DNA of 64,000 nt, from assembly GCF_007858475.1 (NCBI RefSeq), contig NZ_VIGX01000004.1, positions 62,001-126,000 on the forward strand. Direction: 5' to 3'. The translations under genes and the position numbers were made by a program. Origin of the DNA: Tsukamurella conjunctivitidis (GTDB taxonomy: Bacteria; Actinomycetota; Actinomycetes; Mycobacteriales; Mycobacteriaceae). This document shows positions 11,334 to 64,000 of this stretch, in pieces; position 1 is the stretch's first letter, and the number at the start of each line of letters is the position of its first letter. The notes beneath the pieces were generated by a model. That model did not search any database. It was given only the letters and a program-made list of their open reading frames with translations, and was not told where the DNA came from.

Positions 11334-13304
11334 ATGAACCGTCTCGGCGCGTCCACCAGCCCGTACCTGCGCCAGCACGCGGACAACCCGGTGCACTGGC
11401 AGGAGTGGTCGGAGGCGCCGCTGGCGGAGGCCGCCGAGCGCGACGTGCCGATCCTGCTGTCCATCGGCTACGCGGCGTGCCACTGGTGCCACGTGATGGC
11501 GCACGAGTCCTTCGAGAACGAGGCCATCGCGGAACAGATGAACGCGGGCTTCGTCTGCATCAAGGTCGACCGCGAGGAGCGCCCCGACCTCGACGCGATC
11601 TACATGAACGCCACCGTCGCCATGACCGGCCAGGGCGGTTGGCCCATGACCTGCTTCCTCACCCCGTCCGGCGAGCCCTTCTACTGCGGCACCTACTACC
11701 CGCCCGAGCCGCGGAACGGCCAGGCGAGCTTCCCGCAGCTCCTGGAGGCCATCACCGCCACCTGGCGCGACCGGCGCGACGAGGTCGGCCGCGTCTCCGG
11801 GCAGGTGGCCGCGCACCTGCGGCAGTCCTCGGCCGGCCTGCCCGACGGTGCCGCCCCCTCGGCCGAGGACCTGTCCGGCGCGGTGCGCGCGATCTGCGCC
11901 GACGAGGACCCGTCGGGCGGCTTCGGCCGCGCCCCGAAGTTCCCGCCGTCGGCGACGGTCGAGGCCCTGCTGCGGCACCACGAGCGCACCGGTGATCCGG
12001 CCTCCTACGGCGTGGCGCTGCGCTGCGCCGAGGCGATGGCGCGCGGCGGCATCTACGACCAGCTGGGTGGTGGCTTCGCCCGGTACGCCGTGGACGCCGA
12101 CTGGGTGGTGCCGCACTTCGAGAAGATGTTGTACGACAACGCGCTTCTGCTCCGCTTCTACGCACACCTCGGCCGGCGCACCGGATCGCCGCTGGCACTG
12201 CGCGTCGCCGACGAGACCGCCGACTTCCTGATCCGGGACCTCGGGGTCGAGGGCGGCGGGCTGGCCTCGTCGCTCGACGCGGACACCGTGGTCGACGGCC
12301 ACGGCGAGGAGGGCGCCACGTACGTGTGGACCCCGGAGCAACTCGTCGAAGCGCTCGGCGAGGCCGACGGGGCCTGGGCCGCCGAGGTCTTCGCGGTCAC
12401 CCCGGGCGGCACCTTCGAGCACGGGACATCGGTGCTGCAGCTGCACGGCGAACCCGATCCGGTGCGGCTCGCCGACGTGCGGCGGCGCCTCTTCGAAACG
12501 CGTTCGCGCCGAGCGCAACCGGGGCGCGACGACAAGGTCGTCACCGTGTGGAACGGCCTCGCGATCACCGCGCTCGCGGAGTCGGGCCGGGTCGACGAGG
12601 CCGAGGCGGTCGCGCGATACGTCCTCGGAACCCATTGGGACGGCGAGCGACTGCGCCGCAGCTCACTCGCGGGTGCGGTCGGTGAGGCCGACGGGATGCT
12701 GGAGGACTACGCCGCGCTGGTCACCGGACTGTTGGCGCTCTTGCAGCGGGTGGGTGGAACCGAGTGGGACGCAGCCGCTGCGGCGATCCTGGACGTGGCG
12801 ATCACCCGCTTCGCCGACCCGGGGGAGGCCGGTAGCTGGTACGACGCACCGTCGGACGGGGAGCGGCTGCTGACCCGTCCCCGCGATCCGGCGGACGGCG
12901 CGACCCCGGCCGGCGCGAGCCTGATGGCGGAAGCGCTCACCTACGCGGAGGCACTGCTCGGCGAGCGCTACGCGGCGCTCGCCGCGGCGACCCGTGCGCG
13001 CTCGGGCGAGCTGATCCGGCGCGTGCCGCGCGGCGCGGGGCATCACCTCGCGGTCGCGGAGCAGGCGGCGGCGGGACTGCAGATCGCCGTCGCCGACGGT
13101 GCGGGCGCGGCCGCGCTCGTCGCGGAGGCGCGGCGGCTGGCCCCGGGCGGCGCGGTAGTCATTGCCGGAGCTAAAGATTCGCATCCGCTGCTGGAGGGGC
13201 GCGGGCCGGTCGGAGACCGGGCGGCGGCGTACGTCTGCCGCGGTTCCGTGTGCTCGCTGCCGGTCGTCGACGGTGAGACGCTCGCCACAGAATTGGCGCG
13301 CTAA
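11334..13304 (+). CDS. YyaL/Spermatogenesis-associated-20-like protein with DUF255 thioredoxin domain
   Basis: A 656-residue protein. Residues 1-160 are a DUF255 thioredoxin-like domain with the signature ACHWCHVMAHESF (Cys49, Cys52) and NPVHWQEW. The remainder resembles an (alpha/alpha)6 barrel of N-acylglucosamine-2-epimerase type, with GGIYDQLGGGFARY and VPHFEKMLYDNA. The cellular role of the family is not established. It corresponds to the gene after mca in mycobacterial order. The ATG at 11334 is supported by the family-typical N-terminus NRLGASTSPYLRQHADNPV. It is followed by the aroG leader region. Confidence 0.9.
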   Translation: MNRLGASTSPYLRQHADNPVHWQEWSEAPLAEAAERDVPILLSIGYAACHWCHVMAHESFENEAIAEQMNAGFVCIKVDREERPDLDAIYMNATVAMTGQGGWPMTCFLTPSGEPFYCGTYYPPEPRNGQASFPQLLEAITATWRDRRDEVGRVSGQVAAHLRQSSAGLPDGAAPSAEDLSGAVRAICADEDPSGGFGRAPKFPPSATVEALLRHHERTGDPASYGVALRCAEAMARGGIYDQLGGGFARYAVDADWVVPHFEKMLYDNALLLRFYAHLGRRTGSPLALRVADETADFLIRDLGVEGGGLASSLDADTVVDGHGEEGATYVWTPEQLVEALGEADGAWAAEVFAVTPGGTFEHGTSVLQLHGEPDPVRLADVRRRLFETRSRRAQPGRDDKVVTVWNGLAITALAESGRVDEAEAVARYVLGTHWDGERLRRSSLAGAVGEADGMLEDYAALVTGLLALLQRVGGTEWDAAAAAILDVAITRFADPGEAGSWYDAPSDGERLLTRPRDPADGATPAGASLMAEALTYAEALLGERYAALAAATRARSGELIRRVPRGAGHHLAVAEQAAAGLQIAVADGAGAAALVAEARRLAPGGAVVIAGAKDSHPLLEGRGPVGDRAAAYVCRGSVCSLPVVDGETLATELAR

Positions 13305-57551: not shown

Positions 57552-58625
57552 GTGAGCCTTACCCTCGGAATCGTCGGACTGCCCAACGTCGGCAAGTCCA
57601 CCCTGTTCAACGCCCTCACCAACAGTGAGGTGGAGGCGGCGAACTACCCGTTCGCCACCATCGAGCCGAACGTCGGCGTGGTGAACCTGCCGGATCCGCG
57701 CCTGAACCGTCTGGCCGAGATCTTCGGCTCGGAGCGCATCCTGCCCGCCACGGTGTCCTTCGTCGACATCGCCGGCATCGTCAAGGGCGCCTCCGAGGGC
57801 GAGGGCATGGGCAACCAGTTCCTCTCCAACATCCGCGAGGCCGACGCGATCTGCCAGGTGGTGCGCGTCTTCTCCGACGAGGACGTCGTGCACGTGGCCG
57901 GCAAGGTCGACCCGCTCGCCGACATCGAGACCGTCGCCACCGAGCTGATCCTGGCGGACCTGCAGACCATCGAGAAGGCGCTGCCCCGGCTCGAGAAGGA
58001 CGCGCGCAAGAACAAGGAGCTGGTCGAGACCCTCGAGGCGGTCAAGGCCGCGGAGGCCATCCTGACCGACGGCAAGACCCTGTTCGGCGCGGGCTTCGAC
58101 ACCACGCCGATCCGCGAGCTGCACCTCATGACGGCGAAGCCCTTCCTGTACGTCTTCAACGCCGACGAGGGCGTGCTCACCGATGCTTCGCGGCGCGCGG
58201 AGCTGGCGGCCGCCGTCGCGCCCGCCGATTCGGTGTTCCTCGACGCCAAGATCGAGTCGGAGCTGCTCGAACTCGATCCTGAGGATCAGGCCGAGATGCT
58301 GGAGTCCATCGGCCAGGACGAGCCGGGCCTCGACTCGCTCGCCCGCGCCGGCTTCCACACGCTGGGCCTGCAGACCTACCTCACCGCCGGCCCCAAGGAG
58401 TCGCGCGCCTGGACGATCCGCAAGGGCGACACCGCCCCCAAGGCCGCGGGCGTGATCCACACCGACTTCGAGAAGGGCTTCATCAAGGCCGAGATCGTCT
58501 CCTTCGCCGACCTCGACGCCCACGGCAGCATGGCTGCCGCCAAAGCCGCCGGCAAGGTCCGCATGGAGGGCAAGGACTACGTCATGTCCGACGGTGACGT
58601 GGTCGAGTTCCGCTTCAACGTCTAG
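57552..58625 (+). CDS. ychF: Ribosome-binding ATPase YchF
   Basis: A 357-residue Obg-family P-loop ATPase with G1 GLPNVGKST (9-17) and G3 FVDIAGIVKGASEGEGMGNQFL, followed by a helical domain and C-terminal TGS domain (FHTLGLQTYLTAGPKESRAWTIRKGDTAPKAAG). YchF hydrolyses ATP rather than GTP, binds the ribosome and modulates leaderless translation and stress responses. GTG start. It is the last gene of the conserved chromosomal backbone before the phage-like element. Confidence 0.97.
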   Translation: MSLTLGIVGLPNVGKSTLFNALTNSEVEAANYPFATIEPNVGVVNLPDPRLNRLAEIFGSERILPATVSFVDIAGIVKGASEGEGMGNQFLSNIREADAICQVVRVFSDEDVVHVAGKVDPLADIETVATELILADLQTIEKALPRLEKDARKNKELVETLEAVKAAEAILTDGKTLFGAGFDTTPIRELHLMTAKPFLYVFNADEGVLTDASRRAELAAAVAPADSVFLDAKIESELLELDPEDQAEMLESIGQDEPGLDSLARAGFHTLGLQTYLTAGPKESRAWTIRKGDTAPKAAGVIHTDFEKGFIKAEIVSFADLDAHGSMAAAKAAGKVRMEGKDYVMSDGDVVEFRFNV

Positions 58626-58680
58626 GGCCATGGCGTTTGCCCAGGTGGGCGTTGCCCGTCACCGATGAACGCGCTGGTCA

Positions 58681-58773
58681 GTGAGCGCTTTGTAGCGCCC
58701 TGTGAGCGTCCCGCGCTCACCCCGCAACGCACCGAGAACGCCCCGCAATGGGGCTATTCTGGGGCTAGGGGCG
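58681..58773. repeat. Repeats in the spacer after ychF
   Basis: Inverted repeat GTGAGCGC / GCGCTCAC (58681-58688 with 58713-58720); hairpin GCCCC-gcaat-GGGGC (58740-58754); and direct repeat TGGGGCTA at 58749-58756 and 58760-58767, spaced 11 bp. This could mark the element's left end or the promoter of the 70-codon gene. No gene in the 58626-58833 spacer is supported. Confidence 0.45.
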
Positions 58774-58833
58774 TGTCCGGCCGATAGTCTCAGGCGACCC
58801 CGGCGCCGGCCGGGCTGAGCTGGAGGCCGTGAC

Positions 58834-59046
58834 ATGCCGTTGACGCCGCGCCGCGAGGTCTACCTCGACGATCTTCTGTACGAGATGAAATGCCTGCTGA
58901 TCGCAGAACGCGAGGACCGGACGAAGCCTGACGCGGTCGACCTCATGCAAGGGATCGTGAACTTGTTTCGCTCGTCCCATCCGAGAGCCGACGACGCGGT
59001 GCGCCCGGGAATTGGCTACGACCGTCCCGGACGTCCGGTGACGTAG
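58834..59046 (+). CDS. Small protein of unknown function at element left end
   Basis: A 70-residue protein beginning MPLTPRREVYLDDLLYEMKC with acidic, helical segments and one Cys. No family recognised. ATG preceded by GGAGGCCGTGAC. Its stop abuts the convergent XRE repressor stop with no gap. It may be a cargo gene or an antirepressor-type protein. Confidence 0.5.
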   Translation: MPLTPRREVYLDDLLYEMKCLLIAEREDRTKPDAVDLMQGIVNLFRSSHPRADDAVRPGIGYDRPGRPVT

Positions 59047-59304
59047 CTACTCAGCGTCGAACGGGAGTCCGTCCATCAGTGCGCCGGGCGTCGTCTCCAA
59101 GCCGTGCGCGAGGCGCATCACGGTCTCAATCCGGCTGCTGCGCTGTCCCCGCTCGGCTCTCGCGTAGTACGACGAGTGCACGCCGCAGCGGACCGCCGCT
59201 GCTTCCTGACTGAGGCCGAGTTCGGTCCGCCGTGCCCGCAAGCGCGCGCCGAACGTCGCCAGGGTGTCGTTCATGGCTTGCTTCGGTTCGTCGGCAGGGC
59301 TCAT
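59047..59304 (-). CDS. XRE-family (Cro/CI-like) repressor
   Basis: An 85-residue protein with HTH GLSQEAAAVRCGVHSSYYARAERGQRSS at about 30-57 and a short C-terminal helix. Such small XRE proteins control lysogeny or plasmid-like functions. It is divergent from the small membrane protein gene across the CCATCTGG-repeat switch. Start at 59304 or at an internal Met at 59274 (MNDTLATFGARL). Confidence 0.85.
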   Translation of the reverse strand: MSPADEPKQAMNDTLATFGARLRARRTELGLSQEAAAVRCGVHSSYYARAERGQRSSRIETVMRLAHGLETTPGALMDGLPFDAE

Positions 59305-59331
59305 AGCGCCGTCAACTACATCGCGGTAGGG

Positions 59332-59398
59332 CCATCTGGACCAGAGCCATCTGGGCGGGGCCAGATGGTTTAGGCTTCGTTGGGTCGGAATGTCCGAC
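59332..59398. promoter_or_regulatory. Operator cluster between XRE repressor and membrane protein
   Basis: CCATCTGG occurs at 59332-59339 and 59347-59354 and its inverted form CCAGATGG at 59361-59368, the latter two forming an 8-6-8 palindrome. A second palindrome, GTCGGA-atg-TCCGAC, lies at 59384-59398. The region separates the divergent starts (59304 or 59274, and 59422), the layout of a phage immunity switch. Confidence 0.78.
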
Positions 59399-59421
59399 GT
59401 TCAGGCGGAGCGGAGGGACTA

Positions 59422-59739
59422 ATGACTCAGGGAGTCAAGGCGATGTTGGCGGCGTTTGCGGCGGTGGCTGTCTTCGCCATCATCGGGGGCCTGGCGTACG
59501 ACGCGTACGAGGGCACCGAGATGTCGAAATGCGTCGATCAGAATGCTGAGTATCTGAACAAGGGGCAGTACTACCTGGTTGATCCGTGTCCCAGTTACTC
59601 AGGTGTCGGAGCAACGCTCGCGGGCTTTGGCGCTCTCGTGCTCGTTGTCGTTGTTGTCGTAGTGATCGTGATGAAGGTGACCAACAAGCGGCCTCCGGCC
59701 GCACAGCTGCCACCGACGCCCCCTGCGCAGTCGGCTTAG
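59422..59739 (+). CDS. Small two-helix membrane protein facing the XRE repressor
   Basis: A 105-residue protein with a membrane helix at about 5-22 and a second at 60-82, separated by a Cys-containing external loop (MSKCVDQNAE and DPCPSYSG), and ending in a Pro-rich cytosolic tail. No family recognised. The ATG at 59422 is preceded by GGAGGGACTA. Its location across the repeats suggests control by the XRE repressor; it might be a superinfection-exclusion or host-interaction protein, which is inference. Confidence 0.6.
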   Translation: MTQGVKAMLAAFAAVAVFAIIGGLAYDAYEGTEMSKCVDQNAEYLNKGQYYLVDPCPSYSGVGATLAGFGALVLVVVVVVVIVMKVTNKRPPAAQLPPTPPAQSA

Positions 59740-59740
59740 T

Positions 59741-60102
59741 AGCCTGAACAGACGAGAAGCCCGCCACCTCCGGTCCGTGGAGATGGCGGGCTTCCGTTGC
59801 GAGGGCGGGTGCCGAGCCTGGCCCTTTCCTCGCACCGCGCCGGACACGTCGACGGCGCGCGGCAGGAGACAAGTCGATCCCGCCGTCGGGTTGCGGCACA
59901 GGTTCCGCTTCCCGAGTCTGTGGCCGGGGCTGCCCCGGCTCGCTGTGTAGTTGTGGCGTTGGCGGCTGCCAGGTGGCAGCTCAACCGCCTATCGCTGGCC
60001 TCTGGCCGTCGCGGTGGTGGCCTGCGCGGTACTGGTGGCCCAACAGGCTGCCCGGTGCTGCGTCAACGCTGTACGTCCGATCTGGGTCGGACCGCCTGGC
60101 GA
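59741..60102. other. Region without a supported gene
   Basis: This stretch holds the terminator at 59756-59794 and a strong hairpin GCCGGGG-ctg-CCCCGGC at 59923-59939, which may terminate the minus-strand capsid cassette. Short frames such as one from 59951 contain a hydrophobic run but no supported start or family. Confidence 0.5.
59756..59794 (+). terminator. Terminator after the small membrane gene
   Basis: GAAGCCCGCCA / TGGCGGGCTTC (59756-59766 with 59784-59794), 11-bp perfect stem with a further CTCC/GGAG pairing in the loop. It lies 17 bp after the stop codon. Confidence 0.8.
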
Positions 60103-60489
60103 TCATCGCCGCACCTTCGTGCCCGCCGTGGCCTTGCGGCTCGCGGGGTTCGGCCGCGCGGTGACAGTGAGCTTCTTCTGCGCCTTGTCCAGAGAGGGCG
60201 TGACGTCCACCCGACGATCAGGCTTGCCGTGGTAGCCGACGATGCCCTTGGCGACCACTCCACGACCTGCGGGTGATCGGAACTCGGCCCCGATCTTCAC
60301 GCCCTTGTAGTCGCCGCCCTGGCCGACGGTCAGGTGCTTCTCGAAGCTCCCCTTCACGTAGGCGTTGCTCACTGCGCCGGTCGCCTTCTTGCCCGCGTTC
60401 GCGGTTGCGGCCTTCGTCGAGCTGGCGACCTTCGAGCCCGCCCCGGCGAACCGGCCGAGGCGGTCTCTGCGCTGGATGCGGCGGCTCAT
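60103..60489 (-). CDS. Basic protein in the capsid cassette
   Basis: A 128-residue, strongly basic protein with a RRIQRRDRLGRFAGAG start, a middle KGVKIGAEFRSPAGRGVVAKG and KKLTVTARPNPASRKATAG at the end. No family recognised. Its ATG overlaps the upstream stop (ATGA). Co-transcription with the capsid gene suggests a DNA- or capsid-binding role, for example a head or packaging factor, which is inference. Confidence 0.65.
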   Translation of the reverse strand: MSRRIQRRDRLGRFAGAGSKVASSTKAATANAGKKATGAVSNAYVKGSFEKHLTVGQGGDYKGVKIGAEFRSPAGRGVVAKGIVGYHGKPDRRVDVTPSLDKAQKKLTVTARPNPASRKATAGTKVRR

Positions 60490-60746
60490 CCTTGACCGCC
60501 TTGCAGGCGCTCGCGGCGCGCTCGCCGGTCGGCCAGCTCGTCGGTGAGGGCGCGCAGCCCTTCGGGTTCCTCGGCGCCGGGCGCGCGACCTCTGTACATC
60601 CCGCCCTGCGAGGGCGCGGCGTCGGCGAGTTCGGGAGGCGTGAACCCCGGCCCCCAACCGAATTCGCTCGGCTCCAGCTCGGTGAGGTCGTGCTCGTGGC
60701 TGCCAGCGAGCGGCCTACCGGACGTCCTCACTCGTGACCCTGGCAT
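60486..60746 (-). CDS. Small acidic protein in the capsid cassette
   Basis: An 86-residue protein with acidic N-terminal half (SHEHDLTELEPSEFGWGPGFTPPELADAAP) and a charged helical C-terminus (LTDELADRRARRERLQ). No family recognised. Start ATG overlaps the capsid-gene stop (TGATG), implying translational coupling. It could be a scaffold or a decoration protein, but nothing in the sequence shows this directly. Confidence 0.62.
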   Translation of the reverse strand: MPGSRVRTSGRPLAGSHEHDLTELEPSEFGWGPGFTPPELADAAPSQGGMYRGRAPGAEEPEGLRALTDELADRRARRERLQGGQG

Positions 60747-61948
60747 CAGCGCCACGACCACTCGGGCTCGGTGTACGTGCCGGACGCCTTCACCTGGACG
60801 ACGCACGCCGCGCCCCGGTATCGGACGCCGGTCCCGTACCCGCGAGCGAAGAACGAGTCCTGCAGCGGGTACCGCTGGTCGCGACCCGGAATCATCCGCA
60901 GCCCTTGATAATTCACGTTGCTATGAATCCTCATTGCGACCGGGTTGCTCGCGCTGTTCGGGCCACCGGTCGCGACGACTGCGATGTAGCCGACGGGGAG
61001 GTAGTGGCTCTCGATCAGCCACGCGGGGCCGTAGCTGCCACTCACTTCCAGGCCACCGAACTCCGCCGGGGCGATCTGGCCCACGACGTTCTCGGAGGTG
61101 AGGTAGGCCGGGGCAGACGACGAAGGGATGAAGTCATAGCGGCTCTCGATGCCGTTCGTGACCACACCCGCGCGGAAGGTCTGAATGATCTCGCCGTCCT
61201 GCGGGTTCGCCAGGATGATCAGCCGCGAGTTGCCGTCCACGCCGAAGCCCTTGGAGCGGACCTGATTGATCGCGTCCAGGAGATCGCCGGGGTCCAGGTC
61301 GGTGTTGCCGCTCACGAGGTAGTGCGAGGTCTCGGGCGGGAAGGTCTGCCCGGCGTACTCGGGCGGGATCATTCCGTCGGTGCCGTTGTAGAGGCCGTAC
61401 ACCGGAGTGCCGAACTCGTTCGCGCCCTGCTCGGGGCTGAACAGTCGCCGAAGGATCGCGCCGGTCGTCTGCCGATTGTCGGCCTCCATCACGCGGTTGA
61501 TCACGCTGCGGACCTGCTCGGCGTTTGCGTCGCGCAGGAACTTCCACGTGAAGCGGCTGGCGATGTCGTAGTCCTCGTATGTGTAGCCGAGGAGCAGCGC
61601 GTTCGGCTCCGCGCGCAGGCCGGTCGGCTCTCCGAATTCCGACGCGACCTCGAAGTGGTCGCCGCCGAGACTCTGCGGAATTGCGTCTCCGACATTCACC
61701 GTCGAGTACGAGATCAGCGAGGCCAGGGCGGAGCGCTTCTGGTTCCACAGCGCCATCGCGGCCTGCGCGTCGGACCACAGCGACGAAAGGTCGACGCCGT
61801 CCGCGGTCTGGTGAACGAGCACGTCGCCAGCGGTCGAATAGCCGGTGGCTGCGTCTCCCCCGAACGCGAACAGTTCGTCGCGGTTGGGACGCGAGCGCCA
61901 CGGGCGCGAATTCCAGGGTCGGGTGTCGGCGGGGCGGGTGGTGGTCAT
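60746..61948 (-). CDS. Phage major capsid protein
   Basis: A 400-residue protein resembling actinophage major capsid proteins. The C-terminal part reads NPVAMRIHSNVNYQGLRMIPG followed by YPLQDSFFARGYGTGVRYRGAA, a recurring pattern in these capsids; the middle has NVGDAIPQSLGG and FTWKFLRDANAEQVRSVINRV. The ATG at 61948 has GGAG six bases upstream, whereas an in-frame ATG at 62122 would add 58 residues of uncharacteristic sequence. It is the first gene of a three-gene overlapping cassette. Confidence 0.78.
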   Translation of the reverse strand: MTTTRPADTRPWNSRPWRSRPNRDELFAFGGDAATGYSTAGDVLVHQTADGVDLSSLWSDAQAAMALWNQKRSALASLISYSTVNVGDAIPQSLGGDHFEVASEFGEPTGLRAEPNALLLGYTYEDYDIASRFTWKFLRDANAEQVRSVINRVMEADNRQTTGAILRRLFSPEQGANEFGTPVYGLYNGTDGMIPPEYAGQTFPPETSHYLVSGNTDLDPGDLLDAINQVRSKGFGVDGNSRLIILANPQDGEIIQTFRAGVVTNGIESRYDFIPSSSAPAYLTSENVVGQIAPAEFGGLEVSGSYGPAWLIESHYLPVGYIAVVATGGPNSASNPVAMRIHSNVNYQGLRMIPGRDQRYPLQDSFFARGYGTGVRYRGAACVVQVKASGTYTEPEWSWR

Positions 61949-62375
61949 TGTGTCTCCGATCGGTAGGACTGGCGTGGATTCGCCGGCGAACTTCGCCTGC
62001 GACGTCCGGTCCCTGACCGAGCGGGTGCACCAGCGCGGGCGCGGCCCGAAGCGTGGTGCATAGCCAGCGTAACACCGTTGGGCGGCAGCATAATTGGGCG
62101 AGTCGTGAGCGAGGCGGCGCATCGGATGGGGGTTGCGTACGGGGCGTGCTATAAATGTTGCAGGGCCGCCTCAAGGCGGCGCGAAAACAACTACACACCG
62201 TCGTAGAAGGCCACATTGTGACGAGGCTCAGCCTGCCAGCGCAACGGACCGAGGCGACGCGCTAAACCACTGAGACTGGCGTGCGTCGAACAGGAATCCA
62301 GCAGATACCAATCTGCCTGGGGTGCTTGTTCGGCGCACTTTGCTGTTCACGTGCTCCTGGCTGCCAGGAGGAACC
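61949..62375. other. Divergent regulatory region of the element
   Basis: A 427-bp region between the capsid cassette and the HTH gene. Hairpins: GCCGCC-tcaa-GGCGGC (62165-62180), GCAGAT-acca-ATCTGC (62301-62316) and inverted repeat TGCACCA/TGGTGCA (62026-62032 with 62054-62060). On the minus strand TTGAGG and TATAGC (about 62155-62145, 15-bp gap) may be a promoter for the capsid cassette. A tRNA-like stretch near 62220-62300 was examined and not supported. Confidence 0.5.
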
Positions 62376-62657
62376 ATGTCTCGTCACTCATCGGCCACGG
62401 TCGACCCCGCTGCCGTCACCGTCACCACTACGCACGTGGCCCCGCCGGTCACCGTGCAAGGGATCGACCCACTCGATATCCCCGACCTCGACGAACGTCA
62501 AGCGTTCGCGTACCTGAACGCGATCAACCCGCACATCACGCGCCGCCGCGTCCGCGACTCGGTACTTCGCGGCGAACTGGTCGGCGTCCGGCACGGAAAC
62601 AAGAACCTCTTCTCGCGTCGGGCGTGCCTCACGTGGATGACGGGAGGTGCGGCATGA
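62376..62657 (+). CDS. Excisionase-like helix-turn-helix protein
   Basis: A 93-residue protein with an N-terminal flexible part and a C-terminal winged-helix HTH (ERQAFAYLNAINPHITRRRVRDSVLRGELVGVRHGNKNLFSRRACLTWM) resembling excisionase/AlpA-type DNA-binding proteins. It probably regulates excision or replication of the element. Strong ribosome site CCAGGAGGAACC. Its stop overlaps the next gene (ATGA). Confidence 0.82.
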   Translation: MSRHSSATVDPAAVTVTTTHVAPPVTVQGIDPLDIPDLDERQAFAYLNAINPHITRRRVRDSVLRGELVGVRHGNKNLFSRRACLTWMTGGAA

Positions 62658-63349
62658 GTCTCGACAATCCCACGCCGCAAGAACTCCAGATCGCCGACCA
62701 GCTTGAACAAGTGACGCGGGAGGTTCAGCAGTTCAGTAGTCCAGGCCTCCTCGGCAATGAATTCGTGAAGGCAAAGCTGGATGCAGTGATGGATGAGCAC
62801 CGGCGTGCCGTGTCTCGGGGGCCGGAGTACTACGGCGACGGCGAGTACTGGTCAACAGAAGCGCCCGACGCTGGAACGCGAGTGCCGGGGTTGGACGAGC
62901 CAGCTCCAACTTCGCCGGAGTTTGACACCGGGAACCCTGAGCATCTCCTCGGGCCGATCGTCATCCCGTCGTGGAGTCCCGGCGCGCCCATCGTCGTACG
63001 CAATGGCGGGAGGTTGAAGAACGTCCTCGTCGGTCCGGGGTTGATCAAGCACTCCGGCAACCGGATGTTGCACTGCACCTGGCACGACGGGCCGGGACGA
63101 CGCGGGCGGTACATGACGCGACCGATGCTGCTCACGCAGACTCGCGGGCAGTACGTCGTCGTGTGGTGGGTCTGTCCATCATGTAGTGAGCGACTGCAAG
63201 AGGCGTTCCCGAGAGAGATGCCGACCGCGGCACAGAGTTACAAGGAACTTCTTGGCGAGAGGTCGGGGTACGCGTATCCCAGTGGCGGTCGTCGCGGAAT
63301 CTGCCTATTCCCAGTCACTTCCTTTCGGACACCGGGATATCCCGCGTGA
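62654..63349 (+). CDS. Element protein with Cys/His motifs, function unknown
   Basis: A 231-residue protein with an N-terminal acidic helical part and a C-terminal part containing HCTWHDGPG and WWVCPSCSERLQE, which could bind a metal. No family recognised. GGGAGG precedes the ATG overlap. Operon position between the HTH protein and a replication-type gene suggests a replication or partition role, unproven. Confidence 0.6.
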   Translation: MSLDNPTPQELQIADQLEQVTREVQQFSSPGLLGNEFVKAKLDAVMDEHRRAVSRGPEYYGDGEYWSTEAPDAGTRVPGLDEPAPTSPEFDTGNPEHLLGPIVIPSWSPGAPIVVRNGGRLKNVLVGPGLIKHSGNRMLHCTWHDGPGRRGRYMTRPMLLTQTRGQYVVVWWVCPSCSERLQEAFPREMPTAAQSYKELLGERSGYAYPSGGRRGICLFPVTSFRTPGYPA

Positions 63350-63645
63350 TCCCCGAAGCGCTGGTGGGCGCGGCCCTGTGCGGTCTCTCCGGGTGGACGT
63401 TGGGGCAGCTTGCGGGCGCGGCGGTGGTAACCGTGCGGCGGGGTGTGCGGTGGGCCAGCTTCTCGCGCCTCGGACGTAGCAGCCCAGTTGGCGGTAGCGG
63501 GACACCGGCAGCCATCTCAACGCCTGGCGTCGGCCTGGAGGCCGCGTGCGTCTGCTCGAAACGAACAGACGGCCCCGAGAACGCTGTCCTCGAGGCCGTC
63601 CCGACCGATTTCCACACGGCGAGCAAGAGCTCTCGGGTCAGCTGA
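63346..63645 (+). CDS. Questionable small membrane protein
   Basis: A 99-codon frame from GTG 63346 that overlaps the previous stop (GTGA). The N-terminus has a hydrophobic stretch (EALVGAALCGLSGWTLGQLAGAAVVTV), the rest is polar. A strong hairpin at 63568-63600 falls inside the frame, so either the gene ends sooner or the hairpin acts in the RNA. Low support. Confidence 0.35.
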   Translation: MIPEALVGAALCGLSGWTLGQLAGAAVVTVRRGVRWASFSRLGRSSPVGGSGTPAAISTPGVGLEAACVCSKRTDGPENAVLEAVPTDFHTASKSSRVS

Positions 63646-63681
63646 GCTGACCCTCCAATATCCGTTGTAGGGCAACGGATA
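63568..63681. promoter_or_regulatory. Palindrome cluster before the replication-type gene
   Basis: Successive hairpins: GACGGCC/GGCCGTC with inner CGAG/CTCG (63568-63600), a near-perfect palindrome GGGTCAGCT-g-AGCTGACCC (63635-63653), and TATCCGTTG-taggg-CAACGGATA (63659-63681). A short AGAGCTCT palindrome lies at 63627-63634. The cluster may contain terminators, a replication origin or a recombination or packaging site. Confidence 0.6.
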
Positions 63682-63701
63682 CCACAACCCAAAGGCTGTA
63701 C

Positions 63702-64000
63702 GTGAAGCATACAAGCAACTCTGATCTGGACGGTATTGCGTTGCCGTCATACAGATGCGGCGACAACTCTGTCGGTCTCTACGAGGTTCTTCGAGCCCTC
63801 GGTCACGCCGATGAGGCGGTTGTCAGCATCTGCACCCAGGAGTCAGACGACAAGAAGAGCTTTCGTGGACGGACGATCCGCGTCGAGCACCTGGGACAAG
63901 GGTGGTCGCCGCCCGACGACGTCAACGTATGGTTCTCACCGAACCCGCTGACCATGGAACCGGGCGGCTCGCGCAAGGGTGGCGAGGCAGACGTATCGCG
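63702..64000 (+). CDS. Replication/primase-like protein, N-terminal part (cut by window edge)
   Basis: An open frame of 99 codons from GTG 63702, preceded by AAAGG, running off the right edge. The start YRCGDNSVGLYEVLRALG and the later NVWFSPNPLTMEPGGSRKGGEADVS resemble the N-terminus of phage or satellite primase-polymerase or replicase proteins, in which a WFxxNP segment and a GGxxADV segment precede the catalytic acids. Family call rests on this weak resemblance; the catalytic region is outside the window. Confidence 0.5.
   Translation, partial: MKHTSNSDLDGIALPSYRCGDNSVGLYEVLRALGHADEAVVSICTQESDDKKSFRGRTIRVEHLGQGWSPPDDVNVWFSPNPLTMEPGGSRKGGEADVS

Follow-up and report, generated by a model that had tools for sequence, protein, structure and literature searches.

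What does a gene for a major capsid protein (MCP) do at a bacterial locus where no other virion gene is in view? The question is raised by the right end of a 64,000-nt stretch of the Tsukamurella conjunctivitidis draft genome (GCF_007858475.1, 5.07 Mb; contig NZ_VIGX01000004.1, positions 62,001‒126,000, plus strand; hereafter the window), where an initial annotation had proposed a small capsid-encoding element, either a phage satellite or a reduced prophage. This element, hereafter element A, spans 12.5 kb from position 58607 to the equivalent of position 71145. The window covers its left 5.4 kb, and the further 7.1 kb were read in a contig stretch reaching past the window (L003; window coordinate = L003 coordinate + 58000). 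We consider that element A is probably an integrated satellite resembling the phage-inducible chromosomal islands (PICIs), which has its own MCP and small terminase subunit (TerS) and would borrow the large terminase subunit (TerL), the portal, and the tail from a helper phage.

The capsid cassette and the search for further virion genes

The MCP gene (60746‒61948, minus strand, start inferred) encodes a 400-residue protein of the HK97 type by homology. The protein matches PHROG 3990, "major head protein", with E = 6.6e-105, and 153 of 50,697 phage records, each with at least 80% query coverage and all below 60% identity. The best 40 of these 153 matches are mostly annotated as major capsid or head proteins, and some as hypothetical. 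MCP also matches two solved MCP chains, 8saj (E = 3.4e-82, query residues 31‒397) and 8giu (residues 30‒396), while it has no Pfam match at E ≤ 1 and a plasmid search with it returned no match. Judged by this homology, the capsid assignment is real, and the initial call holds.

The three-gene overlapping cassette described initially is also confirmed. The stop codon of MCP and the ATG of the following gene share TGATG, and the stop codon of the second gene overlaps the ATG of the third as ATGA. Since MCP and the next ATG share TGATG, the second open reading frame (ORF), 106 residues long and open from 60806, probably encodes 86 residues (p86, 60486‒60746, minus strand). The third gene encodes 128 residues (p128, 60103‒60489, minus strand). 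By its overlaps, the cassette is translationally tight. p86 has a conserved core around EFxWGxGxxPP...SQGGxYR and lies on the strand of the capsid gene in all 40 loci carrying it. Both partner genes were unrecognised initially and remain so: among the 50,697 phage records, p86 has no match at E ≤ 0.01 and p128 none at E ≤ 1e-3. p128 has no solved-structure match up to E = 1 and one weak PHROG match from one of 11 members, and Pfam and PHROG scans gave no protease match for either of these MCP-coupled genes. One search pattern found p86 in two viral contigs, a known satellite contig and one where it stands beside an MCP of the same type; no head profile besides that of MCP matched in the latter. 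The dN/dS ratios among element A, a sibling element B (see below), and the relative in Tsukamurella sp. PLM1 are 0.12‒0.20 for MCP, 0.13‒0.27 for p86, and 0.04‒0.125 for p128, and that of the primase is 0.12 between A and B. By these ratios, MCP, p86, p128, and the primase are under purifying selection.

Element B has its capsid block reversed with respect to the primase gene, and a serine resolvase occurs as well. Programmed inversion of the block was considered and rejected. The likely ends of the block carry no inverted repeats longer than 10 bp in A or 11 bp in B, and the 58 rows compared (duplicates and fragments included) comprise 30 divergent, 20 co-directed, and 8 undecided arrangements; for 41 rows, the capsid tree requires at least six changes of orientation. 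We read these differences as probable recombination during evolution and not as a switch.

Scanning 10 ORFs in the window against Pfam and PHROGs revealed no virion family beyond that of MCP, as annotated initially; the other virion-named matches were weak (a tail PHROG in the excisionase-like ORF, E = 0.019 at best). For the whole of element A, Pfam, PHROGs, and a set of head/tail profiles detected no TerL, portal, scaffold, or tail gene. The set comprises 11 profiles (TerL, portal, MuF/maturation protease, scaffold, minor capsid, post-MCP protein, connector, stopper, JAB, tail terminator, and major tail), each modelled on 4 to 11 phages sharing this MCP type. The profiles matched in nine of nine phage loci (JAB protease in eight), most of these phages being part of the models and two of the nine lying outside the TerL model. 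Across 60 loci of the MCP family (some overlapping or repeating one element, each reaching at most about 10 kb to either side of the capsid gene, some cut by contig ends), the 11 profiles matched zero ORFs, and the MCP profile matched 63.

The small terminase and the limits of the element

The initial annotation had also seen no terminase. Since a 251-residue TerS is encoded past the window (window equivalent 66224‒66979, L003:8224‒8979, plus strand), the statement is correct for TerL and, as regards terminases in general, only within the window. The single sequence matches PHROG 10899 weakly (E = 0.0049). When a set of 11 members was used, eight matched PHROG 10899 and eight PHROG 2538, both named "terminase small subunit". 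In IMG/VR, where 39 loci were returned and one on a satellite contig was left out, 29 of the 38 loci with a TerS relative encode TerL on the same strand, no more than 3 kb downstream. After removal of five near-duplicates, this is the case in 24 of 33 loci; random positions gave a mean of 3.6, and none of 400 draws was as high. We read the neighbourhood of the TerS relative in seven phages. It directly precedes TerL in Mae-JY09, where the genes overlap, and in D_HF5_3, across the start of the circular record; in SM23 and Montesquieu it lies 1.7‒2.3 kb ahead of TerL, and in TripleJ near the right end of the linear record, which starts with TerL. No TerL is annotated within the stretch examined in Megan and Mimi. 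Against solved structures, the TerS profile gave two matches at E < 0.01, both to small terminases and via the helical part, followed by two redoxins (E = 0.28 and 0.5). On its PHROG matches, the proximity to TerL, and the solved-structure matches, the 251-residue gene is a small terminase gene. Element A carries it with no detected TerL, as a satellite or PICI-like element would.

Element A is bounded by 15-bp direct repeats. The left copy, attL (58607‒58621, no strand), has the sequence GTTCCGCTTCAACGT and lies in the last codons of the host gene ychF (L003:607), so that the boundary, placed at 58626 initially, is actually at 58607. ychF itself (57552‒58625, plus strand; YchF-GTPase_C, E = 1.6e-38) is outside the element, and its 3' end is the target site. 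The second copy, attR, is at window equivalent 71131‒71145 (L003:13131‒13145), 12,524 bp from the first. The identical 15 bp bound relatives in three other loci, L050, L060, and L093 (genus groups g6, g4, and g6), at 12,397, 11,694, and 12,355 bp respectively, and the integrases of these relatives are 60‒70% identical to that of element A. With its repeats and integrase, element A has what site-specific integration of a PICI-like element would need. An exact empty site was sought with a probe joining the two flanks, and no clean empty copy was found: the ychF part matched in all 16 genomes of the genus, its own included, and the right flank in its own genome only. In four relatives, the core lies at the ychF end, and sequence in common with L003 resumes (at about L003:15157) after 13, 435, 544, and 2,723 bp. 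Some 2 kb to the right of attR are therefore also absent in these relatives. This stretch (L003:13146‒15157), with a Mycobact_memb protein and an SDR-like ORF, is missing at the ychF site of all four. The proposed integration site is supported by a repeat common to three genus groups, and not by a clean empty copy.

From left to right, the gene order is a helix-turn-helix (HTH) repressor on the minus strand, a membrane-protein-like ORF on the plus strand, the p128/p86/MCP cassette on the minus strand, and the excisionase-like gene, two ORFs, and a primase-helicase gene on the plus strand. The XRE/HTH repressor-like protein (59047‒59304, minus strand, 85 residues; HTH_31, E = 1e-13) and the replication-type gene both bear out the initial annotation. 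The latter starts at 63702, runs past the end of the window at 64000 to window equivalent 66014, and encodes a 770-residue primase-helicase with AAA_25 and PHROG 2478 (DNA polymerase/primase) matches. A repressor together with a replication gene of its own is in line with a satellite or PICI-like element; integrase, repressor, and primase are features of classical PICIs. The small DNA-binding protein at 62376‒62657 (plus strand, present in 43 of 56 loci) is called excisionase/AlpA-like from its position and look, and a Pfam scan gave no match. It is followed by a 231-residue protein (62654‒63349, plus strand) with no Pfam match and a 99-residue protein (63346‒63645, plus strand) found in seven loci, its own included. 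The small membrane-protein-like ORF (59380‒59739, plus strand, 119 residues) occurs in three loci, its own included, and a 70-residue ORF (58834‒59046, plus strand), present in one locus only, is a doubtful gene.

The right end was read as had been proposed initially, and it holds an integrase, an att repeat, and TerS, and no set of virion genes. TerS is followed on the plus strand by a serine resolvase (window equivalent 67196‒67876, L003:9196‒9876) and a tyrosine integrase (67867‒69255), the former directly preceding the latter; a relative of the resolvase is present in 42 of 56 loci. On the minus strand follow a HEPN protein (RiboL-PSP/MAE_28990, 69233‒69937) and an NsnA-like/GmrSD_N protein (69903‒71006), which stand in tandem beside attR (L003:11233‒13006) and may form a two-gene defence system. 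A PADLOC scan of seven cargo-type proteins from five elements gave three strong matches, one weak match, and no match for three. The strong matches are the GmrSD_N protein of A (NsnA, E = 1.7e-54), a DUF4062 protein of B (PDC-S60, E = 9.7e-18), and a protein of the L009 element (mREase_IV, E = 2.8e-24). The HEPN protein of A has no PADLOC match.

Related elements and the sibling element B

Related MCPs were found in 48 of 401 genomes of the host family, in 12 of 31 genera. A phylum-wide draw gave MCP matches in four of 396 genomes; three of these genomes, the source genome among them, belong to the host family, and in the fourth the match is a short, stop-interrupted fragment (E = 5.3e-4). We counted gene content in 56 loci, leaving out L006, L053, and L075 as repeats and including truncated loci. 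p86 is present in 40, p128 in 18, the excisionase-like gene in 43, the primase in 39, TerS in 32, the resolvase in 42, and the integrase in 43; excisionase-like gene, primase, resolvase, and integrase occur together in 34. Among 41 rows examined for boundaries, 13 (12 distinct) are repeat-bounded elements of 10.2‒12.9 kb, to which element B is added. The repeats of four further rows (L059, L071, L085, and L094) are doubtful or would give elements of other sizes, and 24 rows have no repeat in the stretch examined.

Element B lies on the same contig (35890‒48375, L004/L005) and is 79‒87% identical to A in the main shared parts. It carries DUF4062/PDC-S60-like cargo between integrase and attR, and is bounded by a 29-bp + 13-bp repeat resembling the 3' half of a tRNA gene, where ARAGORN and Rfam called no tRNA. 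An element in another species of the genus (genome G086) is 99.976% identical to B, with 3 mismatches in 12,486 bp, whereas two stretches of the left flank show 87.9% and 90.6% identity. On the right, the flanks of 7.6 kb (source genome) and 8.5 kb (G086) do not match and contain no element proteins in either genome. Since the flanks diverge on the left and are unmatched on the right, the near-identity ends at the repeat on both sides. We infer a recent transfer of the whole of element B between species, because 99.98% identity within the element stands against 88‒91% in the left flank. The L004 stretch also contains a guanidine-III riboswitch (5391‒5454, minus strand; Rfam RF01763, 59.5 bits) upstream of an ORF that looks like a small multidrug-resistance-like membrane protein.

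Possible mode of action and comparison with known satellites

Upon helper infection or prophage induction, element A would be excised by its integrase and excisionase-like protein and replicated with its own primase-helicase. Its TerS would direct helper TerL to the satellite DNA, which would enter heads made of satellite MCP with p86 and p128 on the helper portal, and helper tails would finish the particle. Between integrase and attR, the HEPN/NsnA-like pair may serve as defence cargo. Element A measures about 12 kb, against 56‒72 kb for the phages with this MCP type among the matches listed (the exception there being one of 43 kb, whose MCP is 22% identical), so its heads would be smaller or hold several copies. 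A more specific scenario may also apply, although the odds lean somewhat against it: the lineage, long-lived as a satellite, swaps capsids, keeping only the MCP of one phage family, with the satellite-specific p86 replacing scaffold and protease, plus TerS, and builds a small shell for about 12 kb on the portal and motor of the helper. If true, the lineage would carry a minimal set of genes for hijacking heads, intermediate between SaPI-type (Staphylococcus aureus pathogenicity island) and capsid-forming satellites. For element A in general, a single capsid gene plus a small terminase may suffice to make an integrative element a phage parasite. With an intact, recently mobile sibling in Tsukamurella, the role of phiRv-like capsid-bearing elements in mycobacteria and their relatives becomes testable.

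Several points weigh against the satellite proposal. The proposed excision, replication, use of a helper, and particle are all read from genes. TerS was detected in 32 of the 56 loci and not in all, is interrupted in PLM1, and has a dN/dS of 0.44 between A and B; the predicted fold of its family (five sequences; mean predicted local distance difference test score 45.5, predicted template modelling score 0.20) supports nothing. The transfer of B, whose right flanks are unmatched, shows mobility and not the vehicle. When the source genome was searched for two TerL families and one portal family, a single match resulted, Terminase_6N on contig C65. The region around it (L161, C65:1‒20000) is prophage-like, with TerL at 1772‒3400 followed by portal-, scaffold-, and MCP-like ORFs and a 1670-residue tape-measure-like ORF, all named from gene order, size, and look. 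Within these 20 kb, neither the 12 phage profiles nor eight profiles of element genes gave a match. Since the region of the only TerL-family match has no head gene of the same type, no matching helper is known, and the C65 region could at most supply motor and tail.

Among other explanations, the best survivor is interference, in which MCP, with p86, mainly spoils or re-sizes helper heads and the satellite DNA travels in helper-built heads, perhaps several copies in each. An MCP with no scaffold, protease, or portal of its own would fit this, as would the defence-like cargo in A, B, and the L009 element; a full-length MCP under purifying selection, however, seems to exceed what interference needs, and we regard this explanation as unlikely. 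A reduced or decaying prophage, whose MCP is left over from a Cuke-type phage that lost the rest, is more improbable still. MCP is homologous to proteins of full phages, and some loci of the family are fragmentary or contain stops. On the other hand, dozens of loci share a partial gene set and none has a match to any of the 11 head/tail profiles, the genes are under purifying selection, and sibling B appears to have moved recently and intact. The MCP tree also argues against decay: 46 locus MCPs and 13 phage MCPs fall on exactly two sides of one branch (support 100/99; 200 of 200 bootstrap trees), so that, with 13 of the 153 phage records included and rows shorter than 330 residues and three identical rows left out, MCP is not nested among phage MCPs. 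Four loci (L063, L064, L065, and L067) are placed on a long branch beside the phage MCPs, and the tree was flagged for long branches. No further virion remnants were found. Of the two readings offered initially, the satellite is favoured by the integrase, att repeat, and TerS, its wide distribution, the purifying selection, and the moved sibling, while the prophage is disfavoured by the 60 loci and the MCP branch. It is scarcely credible that element A is a genuine capsid-forming PICI with a portal, protease, and TerL diverged beyond recognition: it does hold a few unknown ORFs, but these (231, 128, 119, 99, 86, and 70 residues) are too small for TerL or portal (about 500 residues in related phages), the Pfam and PHROG scans covered every gene annotated in it, and the 10 of 17 unassigned ORFs scanned in three other elements gave no match to a head or packaging family.

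We therefore compare element A, as a probable satellite, with known systems. phiRv1 and phiRv2 carry a prohead protease beside MCP, and their MCP is of the Phage_capsid Pfam type, a type not matched by the MCP of element A. In print, the two are elements of 9.3 and 10.8 kb with an integrase and phage genes (PMC3986857, PMC10654092), counted as PICI-like (PMC10654092). The likeness to phiRv proposed initially stands for gene content, in the small size, the integrase, and the phage genes (PMC3986857, PMC10654092), but a prohead protease is listed for phiBN42_1, which is similar to phiRv1/2 (PMC3986857), and none was found in element A. Mycobacterium regions with integrase and MCP have been called candidate PICIs, with induction not shown; they sometimes encode a helicase, some have terminase (subunit not stated) and scaffold genes, and some have att sites at tRNA genes (PMC10654092). 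They resemble element A in being integrated and having integrase and MCP. The differences are that here one MCP lineage is traced through Tsukamurella and further genus groups; it comes with TerS, p86/p128, and a resolvase, no TerL was found, and a sibling was apparently transferred between species.

Mulch and Flayer, satellites of Streptomyces, encode an MCP and have heads of roughly half the helper size (PMC10690885). Their actinomycete host and own MCP are the likeness to element A; they differ in encoding TerL, portal, and scaffold and no obvious replicase (PMC10690885). Classical PICIs such as the SaPIs in some cases encode a TerS that redirects packaging, which is their likeness to element A, and scaffold-like proteins that make helper capsids smaller, whereas element A encodes a whole MCP (PMC10690885). 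Capsid-forming PICIs encode their own MCP, TerS, protease, portal, connectors, and TerL and use helper tails (PMC10690885). Element A shares with them its own MCP and TerS and, as proposed here, the helper tails, but protease, portal, connectors, and TerL were not found in it. The literature searched, with subscription papers mostly outside its scope, contains no description of satellites that encode MCP and TerS while lacking TerL and portal. Since none such is described there, we take the combination as a probable new variation on known PICI-like satellites, and on the best reading, this satellite family lies between the classical and the capsid-forming PICIs.

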